Assembly (NCBI RefSeq): GCF_027474405.1
Contig: NZ_CP114871.1
Location: 1,125,001-1,189,000, forward strand
Direction of reading: 5' to 3'
Length of the DNA: 64,000 bases
Source of the DNA: Caulobacter sp. NIBR2454
GTDB taxonomy: Bacteria > Pseudomonadota > Alphaproteobacteria > Caulobacterales > Caulobacteraceae
The position numbers and the translations under genes were made by a program. Of the stretch, positions 33,398-42,885 are shown in pieces; the stretch's first letter is position 1; each line of letters begins with the position of its first letter. Below the pieces are notes generated by a model that ran no database searches, was not told where the DNA came from, and was given only the letters and a program-made list of their open reading frames with translations.

Positions 33398-35056
33398 ATG
33401 TATCTGTACGACGCCCTCGATAAGGAATTCCTGGCTGACCGGTCCGCGGAGTTCCGCGGCCAGGTGGCGCGGCGCCTCGCCGGCGAGCTGAGCGAGGATC
33501 AGTTCAAGCCTCTGCGGCTGATGAACGGCCTTTATCTGCAACTGCACGCCTACATGCTGCGGGTGGCGATCCCCTATGGCTCGCTGAACGCGGCGCAGGC
33601 GCGCCGCCTGGCCGATATCGCCCGCCGCTACGACAAGGGCTACGGCCACTTCACCACCCGCCAGAACATCCAGTTCAACTGGATCAAGCTGGGCGACGCG
33701 CCAGACATCCTCGACCAACTGGCCGAGGTGGACCTGCACGCCATCCAGACCAGCGGCAATTGCATCCGCAACGTCACGTCCGACCCCTATGCCGGCGCCA
33801 CCGCCGACGAAGTCGATGATCCGCGCGTGTGGTCGGAGGTGATCCGCCAATGGTCGACGCTGCATCCGGAATTCTCGTTCCTGCCGCGCAAGTTCAAGAT
33901 CGCCATCACCGCCGCGCCCAAGGACCGCACGGCGGCGCGTGTGCATGACATCGGCCTGGTGGCCCGTCGCGGTCGCGACGGCTCGCTCGGCTTTGAAGTG
34001 ATCGTCGGCGGCGGGCAGGGGCGTACGCCCTATGTCGGTCCGACCATCAAGGAGCATCTGCCGGCGTCGCGCCTGCTGAGCTACCTGGAGGCGGTGCTGC
34101 GCGTCTACAACCGCTACGGACGGCGCGACAACATCTACAAGGCCCGGATCAAGATCCTGGTCGCCGCCCTGGGCGCCGAGGAATTCGGCCGTCAGGTCGA
34201 GGAAGAGTGGGCCAAGATCGACGCCGCCCGCGCCGACCTGCCCGACACCGAACTGGCCCGCATCCGCGGCGCCTTCGCCTCCACGCCCTTCGAGACCCTG
34301 CCGGCGACGTCGGCGGCGTTCGATGCGGCCAAGACCGCTGATCCCGCCTTCGCCCGGTTCGTGCGCAACAACGTCAAGCCGCACAAGAAAGCCGGCTACG
34401 CCATCGTCGAGGTTTCGTTGAAGGCGATCGGCCAGACGCCGGGCGACGCCACGGCCGATCAGCTCGATATCGCCGCCGACCTGGCCGAGCGCTACAGCCT
34501 CAACGACCTGCGCGTCACCCACGCCCAGAACCTGGTGCTGCCGCACGTGAAGCTGGACGACGTTCCGGTGGTGCATGCGGCCTTGCAAAAGGCGGGTCTG
34601 GCCACGGCCAATATCGACCTGGCGTCTGACATCATCGCCTGCCCGGGTCTGGACTATTGCGCCCTGGCCAACGCCCGCGCGATCCCGGTGGCTCAGCATA
34701 TCGCCGAGAAATTCGCCGACGCCGACTACGCCGAGAAGGTCGGCGAACTGAAGATCAAGATCAGCGGCTGCATCAACGCCTGCGGCCACCACCACGTCGC
34801 CCACATCGGTGTGCTGGGCGTCGATAAGAAGGGCGAGGAGTTTTACCAGCTCTCGCTGGGCGGCTCCGGCGCCGAGGACGCCAGCATCGCCCAGATTCTC
34901 GGCCCGGCCTTGCCTGCCGACAAGGTGGCGGGCGCGGTGGACGTTCTGGTGGAGAAGTACCTGTCAGTGCGCGAGGGCGAGGAGCGTTTCCTCGACACCT
35001 TCCGCCGCATCGGCATGGCCCCGTTCAAGGAGGCCGTCTATGCCGACGCTCATTAA
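33398..35056 (+). CDS. cysI: Sulfite reductase hemoprotein subunit
   Basis: 552 aa. Nitrite/sulfite reductase fold with two ferredoxin-like repeats; siroheme/[4Fe-4S] ligands C-x5-C in IIACPGLDYCALAN (~residue 415) and C-x3-C in ISGCINACGHHH (~455). Early motif KGYGHFTTRQNIQFNW. Reduces sulfite to sulfide with six electrons. ATG follows GGGAGGGAG. No flavoprotein subunit (CysJ) is nearby, so another electron donor is used. Confidence 0.9.
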   Translation: MYLYDALDKEFLADRSAEFRGQVARRLAGELSEDQFKPLRLMNGLYLQLHAYMLRVAIPYGSLNAAQARRLADIARRYDKGYGHFTTRQNIQFNWIKLGDAPDILDQLAEVDLHAIQTSGNCIRNVTSDPYAGATADEVDDPRVWSEVIRQWSTLHPEFSFLPRKFKIAITAAPKDRTAARVHDIGLVARRGRDGSLGFEVIVGGGQGRTPYVGPTIKEHLPASRLLSYLEAVLRVYNRYGRRDNIYKARIKILVAALGAEEFGRQVEEEWAKIDAARADLPDTELARIRGAFASTPFETLPATSAAFDAAKTADPAFARFVRNNVKPHKKAGYAIVEVSLKAIGQTPGDATADQLDIAADLAERYSLNDLRVTHAQNLVLPHVKLDDVPVVHAALQKAGLATANIDLASDIIACPGLDYCALANARAIPVAQHIAEKFADADYAEKVGELKIKISGCINACGHHHVAHIGVLGVDKKGEEFYQLSLGGSGAEDASIAQILGPALPADKVAGAVDVLVEKYLSVREGEERFLDTFRRIGMAPFKEAVYADAH

Positions 35057-35540
35057 GCTGACCGACGCCGGCTATGCCGAGATCGACAACGACTTCGTCC
35101 ATGTGGCGGACGAGGACGACGCGCCCAATGCCGACGCGGTGATCTTGTCCCACGCCCGGTTCCAGGCCGAAGGCGAAGCCCTGCTGGCCGCCGGCCGCAA
35201 GGTGGGGGTTCGGTTGGAGAGCGATCAGGCGGTCGAGGACCTGGCCTATGACCTGCCGCGCCTGTCAGTGGTGGCCCTGGCCTTCCCGAAATTTCGCGAC
35301 GGCCGCGCCTTCACCAGCGCCCGGCTGTTGCGCGAACGTCTGGGATTCACGGGCGAGGTGAGGGCGGTGGGGGACGTGTTCCGCGAGCAGGCTGGTTTCA
35401 TGGTCCGCTGCGGGTTCGACGCCTTCGAGCCGTCGGACGGCTCCAATGCACAGGAGTGGGGGAAGGCCGCCGGGCGGTTCCGGCATGTGTACCAGCGCGC
35501 CGCCGACGACCGCGCGCCGGCCTTCGAGGAAAGGGCCTGA
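35040..35540 (+). CDS. DUF934 protein
   Basis: 166 aa: MPTLIKLTDAGYAEIDNDFVHVADED ... VALAFPKFRDGRAFTSARLLRERLGFTGEVRAVGDVFREQAGFMVRCGFDAFE. DUF934 family, regularly encoded between cysI and cysH in proteobacteria; proposed as an oxidoreductase-linked accessory of sulfite reduction, unproven. ATG at 35040 overlaps the last 17 bases of cysI. Confidence 0.8.
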   Translation: MPTLIKLTDAGYAEIDNDFVHVADEDDAPNADAVILSHARFQAEGEALLAAGRKVGVRLESDQAVEDLAYDLPRLSVVALAFPKFRDGRAFTSARLLRERLGFTGEVRAVGDVFREQAGFMVRCGFDAFEPSDGSNAQEWGKAAGRFRHVYQRAADDRAPAFEERA

Positions 35541-35542
35541 CC

Positions 35543-36280
35543 ATGGCCTTCGACCGCGAGCATCCCCATTCCTTCGCCGCGCGGCTGAACGCCGATCTGC
35601 GCGACGCGCCGCCCCAACGGGTGCTCGAGGCCGCCTGGGCCGTCTATGGCGACAAGCTGGCTCTGGTCTCTTCTTTCGGGGCGGAGTCTGCGGTGTTGCT
35701 GCACATCGCGGCCCAGATCACCCGCAAGATTCCGGTCCTGTTCCTGGACACCGGCATGCTGTTTGGTCAGACGCTCGACTACCGCAGGCAATTGGCCGAG
35801 CGCCTGGGCCTGACTGACGTGCGCGACTTGCGCCCCAAGTTCGCTGATCTGGCGCTCAAGGATCCGGCGTCAAATCTTTGGAAGACCAGCACCGACGCCT
35901 GCTGCGACATCCGCAAGGTGCGCCCGCTCGATGAAGCGCTGGGCGGGTTCGAGGCTTGGATCACCGGCCGCAAGCGGTTCCACGGCGGCGATCGGCTGCA
36001 CCTGCCGGTGGTCGAAGAGGCAGGGTCGCAGGTGAAGTTCAACCCGCTGGCCAATTGGTCCAAGGCCGAACTGGACGCCTATGCGGCCAAGCATGAACTG
36101 CCGGCCCATCCACTGGTGGCGAACGGTTTCCCGTCGATCGGCTGCTGGCCCTGCACCAAACCGGTTGAGGCCGGCGCGGACGTGCGCGCCGGCCGTTGGC
36201 AGGGTCAGGAGAAGACCGAATGCGGCATCCACGTCGCCCGCGCGCCTGGTCGTGAAACCAGCATGGGCGAGGGGATCTAG
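35543..36280 (+). CDS. cysH: Adenylylsulfate/phosphoadenylylsulfate reductase
   Basis: 245 aa. LVSSFGAESAVLLHIAAQI (PP-loop, ~residue 45), LFLDTGMLF, and the Cys pattern CC in TSTDACCDIRKVRPL, C-x2-C in SIGCWPCTKPV and catalytic Cys in TECGIHVAR. The CC...CxxC set binds a [4Fe-4S] cluster in bacterial enzymes that use APS. Reduces APS to sulfite with thioredoxin. Last gene of the operon, 2 bases after DUF934. Confidence 0.9.
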   Translation: MAFDREHPHSFAARLNADLRDAPPQRVLEAAWAVYGDKLALVSSFGAESAVLLHIAAQITRKIPVLFLDTGMLFGQTLDYRRQLAERLGLTDVRDLRPKFADLALKDPASNLWKTSTDACCDIRKVRPLDEALGGFEAWITGRKRFHGGDRLHLPVVEEAGSQVKFNPLANWSKAELDAYAAKHELPAHPLVANGFPSIGCWPCTKPVEAGADVRAGRWQGQEKTECGIHVARAPGRETSMGEGI

Positions 36281-36449
36281 ACCCTCCCGGGTGGGGCCAA
36301 CCGCGCTCGGAGATGGCCTGCGCGCAAAGCCTCGCCGGTGGCTTGCCCGTTGCGCGCGGCGGCAATCAACCTCAGCCATGAGTAGAGTCCGCGGGCCGAA
36401 TCTGGCCATGTGCTGGTTGGACGCTGCGGCTTGAGGGAAGGGAGGGGAA

Positions 36450-39400
36450 ATGGTCTCACCGATCATCAAGTACTCCCTGGCCCAGTTCAGCGCCCTTTCG
36501 GCCACCGAGGCCCAGAGCCTGACGGCGGCCGACATGAGGCTGCTATCGACCTCGCAGCTGAGCGCCATGAGCGCCACCGCCATCGGCGAGCTGTCCCAGG
36601 CGCAGGTCGAGGCGCTCTCCACAGCGCAGGTCAAAGGGCTCAAGGCCGCCCAGATACCGCATCTGGATTCGGCGGTGTCCTTTTCGGTGGCCCAGCTGAA
36701 GGTGTTCGCGGCCGACCAGATGCGCGGGTTCGACACCACTCGCATCGCTGGCCTCGACGCGGGTGAACTGGCCGTTCTGTCGGGCCAGCAGCTATCAGGA
36801 CTTGCGGACACGGCGATCAACGCCCTGGTGGCCACCCAGCTGGACGCCCTGAGCGCTCGCCAACTGGCGGGGCTGACTGCCATGGCGCTGTCGCAACTGG
36901 ACGCCACGCGGATTGGCCTGCTCGACAGCGACCAGATCAGGGGCCTGACCGCCGTCCAGATGAAAGACCTGAGCGCCGCCGATTTCTCCGAGTTCACCAC
37001 CACCCAGGTTTCGGCGATGACCGGCGGCCAACTCGGCGCCCTGTCGGGGACCAACCTGCAGTCGCTATCGCTGACCCAGATGATGTCCCTGGACGCGACC
37101 CAGGTGCGCGGTCTGACGGCGACGCAACTGCGGATGCTGGGCGCCGGCGACCTGGCCGAGTTCGGGACCACCCAGATTGCCGCGCTCACAGCGGGTCAGG
37201 TTGCGGCGCTCAGCAGCACGCAGCTGGCCGGGCTCGATCAGACCCAGGTGCGCGCCCTCGGCGGCGCTCAGATGCGCGCGATCTCGCCCAGTTTGCTGGC
37301 CGTCCTGACGGCGGCCGACATCGCAAGGTTTGGCGCCGACCAGATCGGCGGACTGACCGCCGCGCAGCTAAAGGTTCTAAGCAGCGCGACGCTCGCAACG
37401 CTCGACGAGACCCAGGTCCGCGCCCTGCCGGCCAGCCAGATTCAGGGGCTGTCGCCGACCGCCTTTGCTGGCTTGAGCCAGACCCAGGTCTCCTGGCTGA
37501 ACGTGTCCCAGATCAGGGGGCTGTCGACCAGCCAGGTGCGCGCCTTGGACGCCGGCGCGTTTGAGCGGCTTGACGCCACCCAGGTATCGGCCCTGACCGG
37601 CGCCCAGCTCGGCGCCCTATCGACGACGAACCTGCTGAGCCTCGACGCCACCCAGGTGCGCGGACTGGACGCCAGCCAGATGCGCGGCATCACGGCTGGC
37701 CAACTTCGCGCGATGACCGAGACTGATCTGGCCGAGCTCGGCGTCTCCCAGATCGCCTCGCTCCTGGGCACGCAGGTCACCGCCCTCAGCGCCACGCAGC
37801 TTTCAGCCCTTGACCGCACCCAGGTCCAGGCGTTGGGCGCGGCCCAGATGCGCGGCGTCACCGCCGGCCAGATGGCCGGCCTGTCGGTCACCGACCTGGG
37901 CGAGTTCGCTGCGACCCAAATCCAGGCCCTGTCAGCCGCGCAATTGGGCGTCCTGGGCGCAGCCGCCGCGTCGGTCATGGACGAGGCTTGGCTCGACGCC
38001 CTTTCGACCCGGCAGATCGCCGGACTGTCCACCGCCGCTCTCAACCAGTTCAGCGCCACGCAGTTGGCCAGTCTGAGCCTTGAACAGGTCAAGGGCCTGA
38101 CCGCGCTTCAGATACGCTCCCTAGACGCCACCGCTTTCGGCGGCCTCAACGATGAGCAGTTGGCCGCCTTCAGCGGCGCGCAACTGGCTGCGCTGTCGGC
38201 GACCAACCTCAACAGCCTGGACAGCGCCCAAATGCAGGCGCTGGACGCGACAAAGCTCAAGGCGCTCGCCGCTTCGCAGCTTGCCGGGTTGTCCGCGACC
38301 CGGATCGCCGATCTTGGCCCCACCCAGATCGCGGCGCTCGCGCCCTCCCAGATCAAGGGTCTGTCGGCCACCGCCTTCGCCGCCCTCGATGCGGGGCAGG
38401 TGGGCTCCCTGAGCGCACCGCAGATCCAGGCCCTGGCGCCCACGCAACTGTCGCTTCTGGACGCGACCGGCGTCGCGAAATTCAGCAACACGCAGCTTAG
38501 GGCTCTGAGCGGAGGGCAATTGAGCGGCTTGCCGTCTCTGTCCATGCTCGATGCGGCCAACCTGGACCGGCTGACGGCGGCGCAGCTTGGCGGGCTGCGG
38601 CCCGGGCAGTTGAGCTCGCTGACCCAGACCCAGATGGCTTCGCTGGAGGCCAGCCAGATCCGCGGCCTGACCGCCCAGCAGATCAAGGCCCTGGCCGCCA
38701 CGGACCTGGCCGAATTTGGCCCAACCCAGATCGCCGCCCTGACCGCGGCCCAACTCACGGCCTTGAGCGCCCCGCAACTGGCGGCCCTAGCCGACACCCA
38801 GTTGCAGGCGCTGACCGCCTCACAGGTGCGCGCGCTGTCGGTCACCACGCTGAAGGCCATCCCCGCCGCCGAGCTTGCAAGGTTTGGCCCCGAGCAATTG
38901 TCAGGTCTCACATCGCCGCAGCTGGCGGCCTTGGGCTCCGACAGGTTCGGTGATCTCGACAGGACACAGATCGGGGGGCTCAAGGCCAGTCAGCTGTCGG
39001 CCCTGACCGCCCAGGCGTTCGCCCAACTGACCAGCACCCAGGTCGGCTGGCTCGATGCGACCCAGATCAGGGGTCTGACGGCCGCGCAGTTGCGGGGGCT
39101 GGCGGCGGCGGACTTCGCCGAGTTCACCACCACCCAGATCGGCGCCCTCACGGGCGCCCAGCTGGGCGCGCTTTCGCTCACCAGCTTCGCGGGCCTGAGC
39201 GCCACGCAACTGGGCGATCTGGACGCGACCCAGGTCCGTGGTCTCGCCGCCAGCCAACTGGCCCAGCTGACCGCTGGCCAGATGGCGGCCCTGGGTGAGA
39301 CCCAAATCCGCGCCCTGTCCCAGGTGCAGGTGCGCGCGCTGGCGGCCACCAGCATCGGGCAGCTGGACGCCACCCAGATCGGCTTTCTTGGAGCCACGCA

Positions 39401-39710
39401 GATACAGGGCCTCAGCCTGACCCAACTGCGGCAATTGTCGGCCACCGAATTTGGGCGCCTTACGTCCGCACAGGTGATGGCCATGACGCGCCTGCAGATG
39501 CCAGGACTGTCGGAGGGCGTGCTGGACGCGCTGACCATCACCGACATGGCCCTCTTTGCGCCCACCCAGATCGCCGGCCTGGCGGCCAGCCAGCTTGATC
39601 GTCTGAGCGCCGCGCACATCGCGGCGCTGACCGATGAACAGGTGGCGGCCATGACCGCGGCGCAGATCCAGTCGCTGGATGAAGCCCAGCGCCAGGCGCT
39701 GGTTCAGTAG
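36450..39710 (+). CDS. Giant octapeptide-repeat protein
   Basis: 1086 aa made almost entirely of eight-residue repeats, pattern [S/T]-x-x-Q-[L/V/I]-x-x-L, about 134 in a row (for example QVRGLTAT, QLRMLGAG, QIAALTAG). Hydrophobic residues recur at octad positions 2 and 5, Q/D/N/A at 1, S/T/D around 6. No Cys and few aromatics; no signal peptide or membrane helix seen. Strong ribosome site GGGAGGGGAAATG. A longer 56-residue order overlies the octads. I recognise no named family; a solenoid, surface or secreted structural role is inference. Gene order places it directly upstream of a TPR-FkbM methyltransferase. Confidence 0.85.
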   Translation: MVSPIIKYSLAQFSALSATEAQSLTAADMRLLSTSQLSAMSATAIGELSQAQVEALSTAQVKGLKAAQIPHLDSAVSFSVAQLKVFAADQMRGFDTTRIAGLDAGELAVLSGQQLSGLADTAINALVATQLDALSARQLAGLTAMALSQLDATRIGLLDSDQIRGLTAVQMKDLSAADFSEFTTTQVSAMTGGQLGALSGTNLQSLSLTQMMSLDATQVRGLTATQLRMLGAGDLAEFGTTQIAALTAGQVAALSSTQLAGLDQTQVRALGGAQMRAISPSLLAVLTAADIARFGADQIGGLTAAQLKVLSSATLATLDETQVRALPASQIQGLSPTAFAGLSQTQVSWLNVSQIRGLSTSQVRALDAGAFERLDATQVSALTGAQLGALSTTNLLSLDATQVRGLDASQMRGITAGQLRAMTETDLAELGVSQIASLLGTQVTALSATQLSALDRTQVQALGAAQMRGVTAGQMAGLSVTDLGEFAATQIQALSAAQLGVLGAAAASVMDEAWLDALSTRQIAGLSTAALNQFSATQLASLSLEQVKGLTALQIRSLDATAFGGLNDEQLAAFSGAQLAALSATNLNSLDSAQMQALDATKLKALAASQLAGLSATRIADLGPTQIAALAPSQIKGLSATAFAALDAGQVGSLSAPQIQALAPTQLSLLDATGVAKFSNTQLRALSGGQLSGLPSLSMLDAANLDRLTAAQLGGLRPGQLSSLTQTQMASLEASQIRGLTAQQIKALAATDLAEFGPTQIAALTAAQLTALSAPQLAALADTQLQALTASQVRALSVTTLKAIPAAELARFGPEQLSGLTSPQLAALGSDRFGDLDRTQIGGLKASQLSALTAQAFAQLTSTQVGWLDATQIRGLTAAQLRGLAAADFAEFTTTQIGALTGAQLGALSLTSFAGLSATQLGDLDATQVRGLAASQLAQLTAGQMAALGETQIRALSQVQVRALAATSIGQLDATQIGFLGATQIQGLSLTQLRQLSATEFGRLTSAQVMAMTRLQMPGLSEGVLDALTITDMALFAPTQIAGLAASQLDRLSAAHIAALTDEQVAAMTAAQIQSLDEAQRQALVQ
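36486..39705 (+). repeat. 24-bp tandem coding repeat array (octapeptide array)
   Basis: In-frame 24-bp units, diverged in sequence but constant in period, encode the octads. Acidic octads of type D-[LFI]-x-[ER]-[FL] replace the Q octad at residues 178, 234, 290, 426, 482, 752, 808 and 888. Five gaps among the first five and the 752/808 pair equal 56 residues (7 octads) or a multiple of 8, showing growth by block duplication. Confidence 0.8.
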
Positions 39711-39755: not shown

Positions 39756-41825
39756 ATGACTATGCAGCAAGGCGCGGCGCGTGCGCCGTCGGCCTACGTT
39801 CAACCAAACCAGAAGGCGGCCCAGATCAACGTCATGATAGATTCCGACTTCCGCGCGAGCGCTGGCGACTATCTGATCAAATCCCTGGACTGGGCCGTGC
39901 TTGATCCGCACGGACTGGCCGGAGCGGTCGATCCCGAGCTCCTCGATTTTCTGATTCATACCGCCCGCAACCATCGGTTCGGGCGCTTTATCTCCATGCG
40001 GGACCTTGCCCACGCTGTCCGCAGGACACAAGGCGACGATCCAGCCAGCCTGAGCTGGTCCTATGAGGGTATCGCCGCCGCGGAGCTTGGTGACGCACAG
40101 CGCGCCTTTCAATGCCTGATGACTGCGGCCGCTGTCACGCCACAGCTGCCCGCCCACCACTACAACTGCGCGATCCTGGTGATCCGCAGCAATGGCGACT
40201 ACGAAGCCGCCGCGGCCTGCTTCGAGCGCGCCCTGGCGTGCGACCCCGGTCACACGCCATCGTGGGGAGGGCTGGCGGTCGCGGCCCTCAAGCTTGGCGA
40301 AAACGAACGGGCCATCAACGCGGCGCGCAAGGCCCTTGAGCATGGCGGGGAAGGCCGCGCCTTGAACCATCTTTGTCTCGCCGCCGCTCAGGAGCGCCTT
40401 GGCAGAGACTTCGACTTCCCCGCGGCGCCCAACCCCGCCCCCATGGCGATTCCCCCCCTGGAGCTTGAGCCGCCGTCCATCGTGCTGACGGTGGCCCTGG
40501 ATGACGCGGGCGTCGAACAGGCCCTGCGGCTGGCGACTTCGGTCGCTCAAAGCGCCGCCGGCTGGGCGGTCCATGTGCTTGCTTGCAATCCATCGCCCTG
40601 GGCGCGCCAGAGCCTGGAGGCGGCAAGCGCCCAAGGCGCGTGGTTTTCATGGTCCGCTGAGCTGATGGTCGGTTCTACGCCGTCTGAGCTCAGGACCTTG
40701 GCCGCCCGGATCACCCTATCGCGCTTGCGCGACCTGGCCCGCACGCCCGATGTCAGTGTTGTCCTGGCCCGCTCCTCAATGGTCTTCCACACCGATCCCG
40801 GCGTGATCCTGCCGTCCACCGCACAAGGGGCGGCGGCGCTCATCGGCGAAGGTCTGTTGTGGGACCAGGTGGCGAGCCATGTCATGGCGTTGCGCGGCGG
40901 CGCGGCCGCCGTGCGGTTCGTGGACGCCGCGCTCGCCGCCATGGACGGGCCCTGGAGAACGACGCCCCTGGCTCTGGGCGTGGGACTTTGGCGGGCCTGT
41001 CGCGGGCAGGAAATACGCGCCCTGACGCCCGCCGATCTGCGGATCGTCACAGAGGCGCCGCCCATCACGCAAGCTGCGCCAGCGCGCGGCGACATCAATG
41101 AGCTCGTCGCGTCGCGCTACGGGCAGATGGTTCTCAACAGACACGATCTTTATGTGACTCCCGGCGTGCGCGAGACCGGAGCATGGTCCCAGGACGAGCT
41201 GGACCTGCTCGCCCAACTGATCAAACCAGGTCAGACGGTGCTCGACGTCGGCGCCAACATGGGCAGCCACACGCTCGCCTTCTGCAACTTCGTCGGCCCC
41301 TCCGGGCAGGTGCATGCCTTCGAACCGCAGCGGGTGATGTTCCAGGCGATGGTGGCGGGCGTGGCGCTCAACAGCTGGACCAACGCCTGGTGCTACATGG
41401 CGGCCGTCGGGGCGAAGCGCGGACACATCGAGGTGCCCGACGTCGCCTATGACGAGCCCAGCAATTTCGGGATTATGTCGCTGGTTCCCGGCTGGGAGGG
41501 CGCGGACAATCTTCGCCTCGCCGCGCGGACGCAGACGGTCGAGGTCCTCACGATCGATGGCCTTGGCCTGTCGCGCTGCGACCTGATCAAGATCGATGTG
41601 GAGGGAATGGAAAGGGACGTCCTGGCCGGCGCCGCGGCGACCCTGAAAGCGCACCGGCCCATCCTCTATATGGAGTGCCAGGAGGGCCCCCGCGGCGCTG
41701 AGTGTCTGGCCTACCTCAAGCAGTTCGGCTACCGCGCCTGGTGGCATGGCCATGCCGGATCCCAGAACGTCGTCGCCTTTCCGCAGGAAAGCGCGCCCGC
41801 GACCCTGGGGCTGCAGGAAGCTTGA
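39756..41825 (+). CDS. TPR protein fused to an FkbM-type methyltransferase
   Basis: 689 aa. Residues ~95-215 hold tetratricopeptide-like repeats (SWSYEGIAAAELGDAQRAFQCL, YEAAAACFERALACDPGHTPSW, NERAINAARKALEHGG). Residues ~230-430 are a segment without clear family (SIVLTVALDDAGVEQALRLATSVAQ). Residues ~470-670 are an FkbM methyltransferase: TVLDVGANMGSHTLAFCNFVGPSG (SAM loop), VHAFEPQ, LIKIDVEGMERDVLAGA, ILYMECQ. FkbM enzymes O-methylate sugars or polyketides. 45 bases after the repeat protein, likely same transcript; may modify glycans on the cell surface or on the repeat protein (inference). Start ATG 39756 lacks a good ribosome site; 39762 is an alternative. Confidence 0.75.
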   Translation: MTMQQGAARAPSAYVQPNQKAAQINVMIDSDFRASAGDYLIKSLDWAVLDPHGLAGAVDPELLDFLIHTARNHRFGRFISMRDLAHAVRRTQGDDPASLSWSYEGIAAAELGDAQRAFQCLMTAAAVTPQLPAHHYNCAILVIRSNGDYEAAAACFERALACDPGHTPSWGGLAVAALKLGENERAINAARKALEHGGEGRALNHLCLAAAQERLGRDFDFPAAPNPAPMAIPPLELEPPSIVLTVALDDAGVEQALRLATSVAQSAAGWAVHVLACNPSPWARQSLEAASAQGAWFSWSAELMVGSTPSELRTLAARITLSRLRDLARTPDVSVVLARSSMVFHTDPGVILPSTAQGAAALIGEGLLWDQVASHVMALRGGAAAVRFVDAALAAMDGPWRTTPLALGVGLWRACRGQEIRALTPADLRIVTEAPPITQAAPARGDINELVASRYGQMVLNRHDLYVTPGVRETGAWSQDELDLLAQLIKPGQTVLDVGANMGSHTLAFCNFVGPSGQVHAFEPQRVMFQAMVAGVALNSWTNAWCYMAAVGAKRGHIEVPDVAYDEPSNFGIMSLVPGWEGADNLRLAARTQTVEVLTIDGLGLSRCDLIKIDVEGMERDVLAGAAATLKAHRPILYMECQEGPRGAECLAYLKQFGYRAWWHGHAGSQNVVAFPQESAPATLGLQEA

Positions 41826-41877: not shown

Positions 41878-42212
41878 CTAAAGCACGAAATCGGCGGCGG
41901 TGAGTGAGCTTACTCCAAGCAACAGAACGCGGAAATCACCCAGCCCATCCCCTTTGACGTCCGCCTCGAACCCCACGTTCGCTCCGGACACCACATAGCG
42001 AAGCTGCCCCGAAACGCCTGTAAAAGCCGCCGTTCCAAGGAAGGTGAAGGCCTGGTTGCCCGAGACATTGCTCCGCGCATCGAGGGCCGAGACATCAATG
42101 CGATCCACTCCGGACACGAAGTCGAAGATGTTGTCGTACCACTGGAAGTGATTGGAGCCGGTGATCGCAGCATAGACGAAGGTGTCGGCTCCGGCGCCGC
42201 CATAGAGGTGAT
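41878..42212 (-). pseudogene. C-terminal remnant of an RTX/type I-secreted protein
   Basis: About 110 residues: [22 protein letters not shown] ... [18 protein letters not shown] ... [22 protein letters not shown]. This is the end of the calcium-binding GGxGxDxF repeat region plus the C-terminal secretion/M10-type domain of type I-secreted proteins. Upstream of NHLYGG the frame runs into the opposite-strand lactate dehydrogenase remnant and the similarity stops. The 5' part of the gene is missing. Any translated ORF from 42357 would have an unrelated start. Confidence 0.75.
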
Positions 42213-42885
42213 TACGGTCGATATGCCCGTGCCCGGCGCCCGTTACCGCGACGCCCACTCTGGGATGAGCGGGCCTTATGCGTCGCTGCGCCGCATGCTG
42301 CAGGCCGCCACCCATCCGGCCTGGGCTTGGGATGTGGGTGTTGGCGGACGGCCGCACGACCTGGGCAATGTTTCGCGCTATCTGGGCAAGGCCACCGGAT
42401 TGGGCGACTACATCGGCTGGCTGGGCGCCAACTTCGAGCCGTCAATCTCCTGGCGCGACCTGCAATGGATCCGGGACTTCTGGGACGGCCCGATGATCAT
42501 CAAGGGCGTGCTCGATCCGCAGGACGCACGCGACGCGGTGACCTTTGGCGCGGACGGCATCGTCGTCTCCAATCACGGCGGGCGGCAGCTGGACGGAGTG
42601 CTGTCCTCGGCCCGGGCGCTGCCGACAATCGCCGAGGCGGTTCAGGGCGACATCCGCATCTTGCTGGATTCGGGCGTACGCAGCGGCCTTGACGTGGTCC
42701 GGGCTCTGGTTTTGGGCGCGGACGCCGTCATGCTTGGCCGACCCTTCGTCTACGCCCTGGCGGCGGGCGGGCAGGCGGCCGTGGCCAACCTGCTCGATCT
42801 GATGGCCAAGGAGATGCGCGTGGCCATGACCCTGACGGGGGCCAGAGCCGTCACCGATCTGGGCGCGCATACGCTCGCCCGATAG
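42208..42885 (+). pseudogene. lldD: L-lactate dehydrogenase (FMN), 5'-truncated
   Basis: About 225 of ~380 residues remain: [23 protein letters not shown] ... [18 protein letters not shown] block ... [22 protein letters not shown] ... [25 protein letters not shown]. These are the C-terminal two thirds of the FMN alpha-hydroxy-acid oxidase LldD, with the catalytic His in [10 protein letters not shown]. The N-terminal third is gone and the sequence abuts the RTX remnant at about 42205-42215. FMN phosphate and substrate residues are partly retained, but the product cannot be a normal enzyme. Confidence 0.8.

Follow-up and report, generated by a model that had tools for sequence, protein, structure and literature searches.

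A giant octapeptide-repeat protein of Caulobacter, its predicted alpha-helical screw fold and the pairing of its relatives with a GT41 glycosyltransferase

Introduction

What might a bacterium do with a protein of 1086 residues that is, from end to end, a single eight-residue motif? The question is raised by a stretch of 64,000 nucleotides from Caulobacter sp. NIBR2454 (contig NZ_CP114871.1, positions 1,125,001 to 1,189,000; hereafter the window, whose positions are counted from its first letter), in which one gene of the forward strand encodes such an array of octapeptides (octads). A preliminary description had assigned the protein to no known family and had proposed a solenoid or fibrous structure for it. 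On balance, we lean slightly towards the explanation that proteins of this kind are screw-like rods, O-glycosylated by a dedicated GT41 glycosyltransferase with a TPR domain, and that the array of the window is a shorter, threonine-poorer paralogue of them. What is new here is the apparently dedicated glycosyltransferase of the relatives, along with the predicted natural occurrence of a recently presented fold; the gene association itself lies outside the window.

The octad array and its family

The array gene and its parts are the following.

36440..36446, forward strand: gggaggg, read as the likely ribosome-binding site in front of the array
36450..39710, forward strand: open reading frame of the giant octad-array (ALTTAQ, PF20080) protein, 1086 residues, 132 in-register octads
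36450..36794, forward strand: conserved N-terminal part, residues 1-115, with an IPxFxxxxxFDxxQL-type break, from an alignment of 14 arrays
36642..36683, forward strand: first 14-residue break in the register, residues 65-78, KAAQIPHLDSAVSF
37572..38291, forward strand: stretch covered by the AlphaFold2 model (residues 375-614, 40-row alignment)
38532..38573, forward strand: second 14-residue break in the register, residues 695-708

The gene starts with ATG, preceded by the purine-rich gggaggg, and the octad consensus of its product is [S/T/D]-x-[T/A]-Q-[L/I/V]-x-[A/G]-L. Residue identity is 0.30 at a lag of 8 and 0.26-0.31 at lags of 16, 24, 32 and 40, against a top value of 0.139 at any lag from 2 to 40 in 200 shuffles. 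A position-specific octad model recovered 114 octads, covering 912 of the 1086 residues and spaced by exactly eight residues in 99 of 113 cases (50 shuffles: mean 9.6 octads, maximum 16). Counted by phase, that is, by dividing the in-register blocks by hand, the protein has three in-register blocks of 8, 77 and 47 octads (132 in all), which together with the two 14-residue breaks and a remainder of two residues at the ends make up its length; hence, the earlier figure of about 134 octads was a fair one. The claim that the repeat runs through the whole protein was likewise borne out, and cysteine is indeed absent from the 1086 residues. Tandem Repeats Finder at its default score reported 0 DNA tandem repeats in the gene, and therefore the repeat is kept at the protein level.

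Judged from its sequence, the window protein is a strong member of the described family PF20080 (ALTTAQ repeat), whose model ALTTAQ_rpt matches it in 40 stretches with 279.1 bits (E 5.9e-85; Pfam cut-off 26.4 bits). The assignment to an unknown family thus had to be given up, because a described family matches far above its cut-off. Of the 6 Pfam families reported with E values of up to 10, none is an ice-nucleation octapeptide or pentapeptide repeat. We found no published link between PF20080 and GT41, the Pfam entry being known to us by its name alone. The window protein has the same octad as the PF20080 members, but many of these carry further domains (e.g., calpain, PF00648), whereas it is a pure array. 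Among other ALTTAQ relatives (120 listed of 135 found, companion domains counted by hand), 53 of the 120 combine octad arrays with a calpain-type C2 cysteine protease domain, PF00648, and these are apparently a separate class of ALTTAQ proteins.

The source genome (3.83 Mb) encodes two more pure giant arrays, of 1402 and 2221 residues; of the PF20080 scores of this pair, the higher is 727.2 bits and the lower 557.1 bits. All three arrays share the conserved N-terminus with its IPxFxxxxxFDxxQL-type break, and residues 1-115 are common to the array proteins of the genome and of the family, with a mean column identity of 57% over 14 arrays. In the 2221-residue paralogue (L014, 8868-11161), repeated blocks lie about 741-744 bp (about 31 octads) apart, with the same 24-bp rows recurring, which is block duplication, unlike the window array. 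PF20080 arrays occur in 15 of the 99 genomes of our family sample (E 1e-5). The 24 array genes that we extracted were taken from among the matches listed and come from 14 genomes; some arrays of the 15 genomes may be missing, and a fragment in G057 was omitted. Four pairs of related family arrays, the window array not among them, have pN/pS values of 0.12-0.48, and the lengths differ by 0-3 residues in three of them (812 vs. 756 residues in the fourth).

These data bear on the idea that the array is a low-complexity slippage product with no conserved function. Its repetitiveness, its patchy distribution over 15 of 99 family genomes and the partial 24-bp DNA repeats of a paralogue fit such an origin. 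However, the window gene yielded no DNA tandem repeat, the pN/pS values are 0.12-0.48 with near-equal lengths in three pairs, the N-terminus is conserved and the partner enzyme described below is kept in records labelled with five phyla. We consider this already disfavoured idea extremely improbable.

Predicted fold

AlphaFold2, supplied with the 40-row alignment (39 rows from GT41-linked arrays), models the 240 residues 375-614 with a single helix of 4-6 residues in each octad, 30 helices altogether, and no strands (predicted local distance difference test, pLDDT, 95.3; predicted template modelling score, pTM, 0.86). A single-sequence model of residues 1-240 has mostly the same helix-per-octad pattern (pLDDT 72.3). 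The closest solved sequence relative is PDB 9zem, "HeliScrew4", which is matched at E 1.3e-10 by the window protein alone and at E 1.5e-26 by the 40-row profile, gap-free and in register over 105 residues. Going by its name, HeliScrew4 is probably the designed alpha-helical screw of a 2025 preprint from the DeGrado lab (PMC12822642), which obtains an alpha-helical screw from random repeats and presents it as a super-secondary structure that is new. The octads of the two proteins align in register without gaps and the window protein is likewise predicted to be a helical screw, but HeliScrew4 has 120 residues, whereas the window protein has 1086 and is natural; octad positions 2-3 often hold P and E in HeliScrew4 but A and T in the window protein. 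Structural comparison of the model by Foldseek and VIA-align returned weak look-alikes and nothing stronger, and 9zem is not among the 50 Foldseek rows listed (library dated April 2026). A phage protein, BFVD A0A6J7X2V1, matches the model with 34% identity over 113 columns (E 6e-4, template modelling score 0.17); octad arrays may also occur in phages.

In each of the two long in-register blocks, the order of the octads shows a superperiod of 3.45-3.5 octads, with a power of 16.5 in the first (30 shuffled octad orders gave no more than 10.2) and of 10.4 in the second, for which no shuffles were run; therefore, about 28 residues per superhelical turn are predicted. The AlphaFold2 prediction, together with the solved sequence relative 9zem, supports the solenoid or fibrous structure proposed earlier, and we suggest that the window protein is a natural alpha-helical screw, the fold being a predicted one. 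A known fold of the leucine-rich-repeat or armadillo type appears very improbable. The best leucine-rich-repeat chain does match the profile at E 4.1e-14, but HeliScrew4 is matched at 1.5e-26, the leucine-rich repeat model LRR_8 reaches 18 bits on the window array (under its cut-off of 27), and the model has helices and no strands.

Pairing of arrays with a GT41 glycosyltransferase

Directly past the 2221-residue array lies the only GT41 match of the genome (PF13844, 279 bits), followed by a TPR gene. This GT41 protein matches the chains of human OGT (E 2.7e-85) and XcOGT (E 4.2e-81). The His of the GYVSSD..H motif and the Lys of the N..K block, which we take to be catalytic, are invariant in the 11 GT41 proteins used as queries. 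Compared with human OGT and XcOGT (PDB 7yeh, 2jlb), the array-linked enzyme is homologous and has the same TPR plus GT41 build (the alignment shown is that with human OGT).

With these 11 GT41 proteins as the sole queries we kept the best 80 named loci out of 580 relatives, and an octad array lies immediately upstream on the same strand in 77 of them; four of the 80 are contigs that supplied query rows, and 73 of 76 loci are linked without them. The median distance from the array stop to the start of the GT41 match is 143 bp. As for the three unlinked loci, the array adjacent to the GT41 gene in L179 is divergent; L142 has no array within 10 kb, and one in a 3173-residue open frame elsewhere in its genome; L153 has 123 bp of upstream sequence in all, with no array shown in its genome. 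Once identical copies were removed and at least 600 bp of upstream sequence was required, 80 of the 83 GT41 genes scoring at least 900 against the subfamily model were array-linked, as compared with 0 of the 28 scoring below 900; these 28 come from 20 hand-picked regions or are the second GT41 gene of another locus. This comparison replaced a first control on short loci, in which the upstream gene was often out of reach and arrays were found in 3 of 52, all of them pieces of known array loci. On a tree of 81 GT41 proteins (a quick search with half of the linked named loci omitted and two long branches), the array-link label changes 5 times, as compared with 25.8 times on average after shuffling. 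Going by the labels of their records, the 80 loci fall into five phyla, with 75 in Pseudomonadota (74 Alphaproteobacteria), 2 in Verrucomicrobiota and 1 each in Myxococcota, Thermodesulfobacteriota and Fidelibacterota, although these labels may err since many records are metagenome bins. On these sequence comparisons, the array-linked GT41 subfamily looks dedicated to octad arrays.

Within the family sample, GT41 is present in 48 of 99 genomes, namely in 13 of the 15 array genomes vs. 35 of the remaining 84. Of the 24 family arrays, 10 are followed immediately, on the same strand, by a GT41 of one subfamily, and in L047 a GT41 of the same subfamily lies one gene away in the opposite orientation; all 11 of these arrays are among the 13 of at least 1700 residues. 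The Caulobacter vibrioides control genome has both PF20080 and GT41 matches (GT41 being counted without subfamily assignment), and C. vibrioides DSM 9893 has the full array and GT41 pair (L136). Many linked arrays close on similar octads, e.g., STTNIxxLTSTQxxAxTxTQVxSLxxxQIxAYL or FTTTQxxxMTxxQxAAxxxALA; such ends may serve as a cap or as a signal for export.

Serine and threonine in the octads

The linked arrays (n = 86, i.e., 76 usable of the 80 named loci plus 10 from the family scan, read in the frame with most octads) have median serine/threonine (Ser/Thr) fractions of 0.77, 0.48 and 0.81 at octad positions 1, 2 and 3, vs. 0.80, 0.33 and 0.65 in the unlinked family arrays (n = 13) and 0.86, 0.28 and 0.36 in other ALTTAQ proteins (n = 120). 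Compared with the unlinked arrays, they are richer at position 2 (p 2e-5) and position 3 (p 1.4e-4) and alike at position 1 (p 0.38); compared with other ALTTAQ proteins, they are lower at position 1 (p 6e-9) and higher at positions 2 (p 3e-17) and 3 (p 3e-33). Four of the 86 are duplicate contigs, without which the medians are equal save at position 1 (0.76), whereas the p-values come from the full 86. The unlinked array L066, in a genome where this GT41 type was not found, has a position-3 Ser/Thr fraction of 0.19, which favours modification by the enzyme.

Accessory genes beside the pairs

FkbM enzymes methylate sugars, and an FkbM-domain gene lies downstream of the array and GT41 pair in 14 of the 69 loci with at least 2.5 kb of downstream sequence (7 by a distance rule and 7 from coordinates, the gene being about 4.4 kb away in L169 and about 2.4 kb in L121); in the family sample, it is found in 2 of 23 array loci (L060, L062). 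A cluster of UDP-glucuronate-decarboxylase-like genes is represented in 9 of 80 loci; NCBIfam names the gene below its cut-offs, and the identification rests on the match of one tested member to the solved UDP-glucuronate decarboxylase 1 (E about 1e-123). One array and GT41 locus contains a GT61 gene. A further recurrent gene family stands past the GT41 gene in 23 of 80 loci; of three scanned relatives, two have TPR and one has FkbM, and the C-terminal part may be glycosyltransferase-like, PF03407 being reached at E 0.036, below cut-off, in one scanned member.

An array of this kind might also be an extracellular adhesin or stalk, forming a surface fibre by a type I-like route, with sugar modification incidental to its function. 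Other ALTTAQ proteins do carry two-partner-secretion, RTX, Ig or G8 domains: PF05860 is present in 7 of the 120 listed, PF10162 in 16, PF00353 in 3 and the calpain domain PF00648 in 53. The pure arrays, however, show no such domain; inspection by eye, without a predictor, revealed no signal peptide or anchor in them, and their recurrent neighbours, of which not every cluster was scanned, included no recognisable secretion gene. We therefore hold the adhesin alternative to be unlikely.

The neighbourhood of the window array

Downstream of the window array stands a gene of a different kind.

39756..41825, forward strand: TPR-FkbM gene, 689 residues, with N-terminal TPR, a middle part without family match and a C-terminal FkbM methyltransferase
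41235..41735, forward strand: FkbM methyltransferase domain from profile matches (TIGR01444 at 494-641, PF05050 at 497-660)

It begins 45 bp past the array gene on the same strand, and we infer that the two share one transcript. Its matches are PF05050 (5.6e-19), TIGR01444 (1.5e-27) and TPR_2 (2.8e-10), both FkbM methyltransferase models lying over their cut-offs (TIGR01444 96.8 bits against 37.7, PF05050 69.3 bits against 22.7). A full-length match was obtained in 1 of the 99 family-sample genomes, its own, the remaining matches reaching the FkbM part alone. The co-occurrence of arrays and FkbM, suggested earlier as a check, is thus seen for the full-length TPR-FkbM gene in its own genome alone, but for FkbM-domain genes in the 14 of 69 loci mentioned above. 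The TPR part bears a weak likeness to the TPRs of the GT41 proteins (E about 2e-4 in a seven-sequence comparison, far weaker at database scale). The TPR-FkbM protein may act on the window array, probably on its sugar.

Upstream, at 33398-36280 on the forward strand, is a cluster resembling the sulfate-assimilation genes cysI/cysH, from which the array gene, on that strand too, is separated by about 170 bp. Just past TPR-FkbM, two overlapping frames, 41878-42357 (reverse strand) and 42148-42885 (forward strand), look like gene remnants, one corresponding to the last part of an M10/RTX protease-type C-terminal domain (from profile position 83 onwards, out of 193) and the other to an FMN-dependent dehydrogenase without the first 135 profile positions. 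Such remnants at the edge of the array locus suggest an old rearrangement.

Discussion

From the repeat, the family, the gene association and the residue bias, all of which we observed directly, we propose the following course of events. Each octad would form one helix of 4-6 residues, presumably capped by the S/T/D of position 1, and about 3.5 octads would complete a superhelical turn, giving a long rod. Most of the long arrays are directly followed by a gene for their own TPR-GT41 glycosyltransferase, whose cytoplasmic TPR domain would dock on the screw, while its GT41 domain would O-glycosylate the Thr/Ser of octad positions 3 and 2, which we take as exposed. The UDP-xylose-synthase-like, GT61 and FkbM genes beside some pairs could supply, extend and methylate the sugar, and the result would be a glycan-coated rod, probably exported. 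The 2221-residue paralogue has a TPR plus GT41 enzyme beside it, whereas the neighbour of the window array is TPR-FkbM; the window array would be a shorter paralogue, possibly itself glycosylated, with the GT41 of its genome encoded elsewhere and TPR-FkbM most likely methylating the glycan on it.

Several observations weigh against this proposal. No GT41 adjoins the window array, which with 18.4% Ser/Thr is the second poorest of the 24 family arrays and has Ser/Thr fractions of 0.59, 0.15 and 0.60 at positions 1, 2 and 3. An adjacent GT41 is found in 0 of the 10 shorter family arrays with visible downstream sequence (the 11th, L050, ends at a contig end), and two long arrays, L046 and L051, also stand without one. 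The unlinked L050, L051 and L052, in whose genomes this GT41 type was not found, nevertheless have position-3 fractions of 0.60-0.75, on a level with the other unlinked arrays (the L050 genome is 79% complete; L051 and L052 both come from G028, which yielded no GT41 of any type), and the differences in composition could partly reflect ancestry. The middle part of TPR-FkbM has no match among other array neighbours. Finally, export is unsupported for the pure arrays, given that neither a signal or anchor nor a secretion gene was recognised as described above.

Much of this would suit an unglycosylated scaffold or binding rod, to which TPR-FkbM or other proteins dock and in which the Thr-rich faces reflect a preference for helix capping or solubility. 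The window array, lacking an adjacent GT41 and poor in Ser/Thr among family arrays, would fit such a role, as would the high position-3 Ser/Thr (0.60-0.75) kept by three of the four unlinked arrays whose genomes yielded no GT41 of this type. However, a GT41 gene adjoins the array in 77 of the best 80 relatives, and the enrichment over unlinked family arrays lies at positions 2-3 and not at position 1, so that we regard the scaffold as possible but rather unlikely. We thus retain O-glycosylation of the screws by a dedicated TPR-GT41 as the preferred explanation. We would give an even chance to the broader joint claim that there exists a widespread, undescribed class of glycosylated rods, in which multi-thousand-residue screws made in the cytoplasm are O-glycosylated on Thr in most octads by a co-encoded TPR-GT41, the sugar perhaps being xylose, with methylation by FkbM and decoration by GT61 in some species. 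On this view, the products are heavily glycosylated filaments, and the screw fold was present in Caulobacter and other bacteria long before it was presented.

The present family points to large natural examples of the alpha-helical screw, a fold lately presented as new, under an existing Pfam name. Its pairing with one GT41 subfamily is nearly constant and provides a function that can be tested for repeats that are still nameless. The question of how GT41 enzymes choose their sites could profit as well, since a bacterial enzyme of the OGT/SPINDLY type would here have a regular, repetitive candidate acceptor.

Known systems offer two points of comparison. One study reports that GT41 and FkbM genes occur in flagellin glycosylation islands (PMC4875605), and the two are likewise clustered with a fibre protein here, but an array protein takes the place of flagellin and no export route is known for it. 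The nearest parallel is FlmG of Caulobacter, described in PMC7591256 as a cytoplasmic TPR-glycosyltransferase enzyme that is required for flagellin modification and whose TPR domain binds flagellin; in such systems, modification precedes export (PMC7591256). Both enzymes combine a TPR N-domain with a GT-B C-domain, and FlmG, according to the same source, carries out Ser/Thr O-glycosylation and binds its substrate by TPR. The presumed substrate of the array-linked enzyme, in contrast, is a giant octad screw, and the enzyme belongs to a separate GT41 subfamily encoded beside it. As the array and GT41 pair has the same parts as the FlmG system, we read it as a probable dedicated O-glycosylation module for screws; if this is true, cytoplasmic O-glycosylation reaches beyond flagellin and adhesins.

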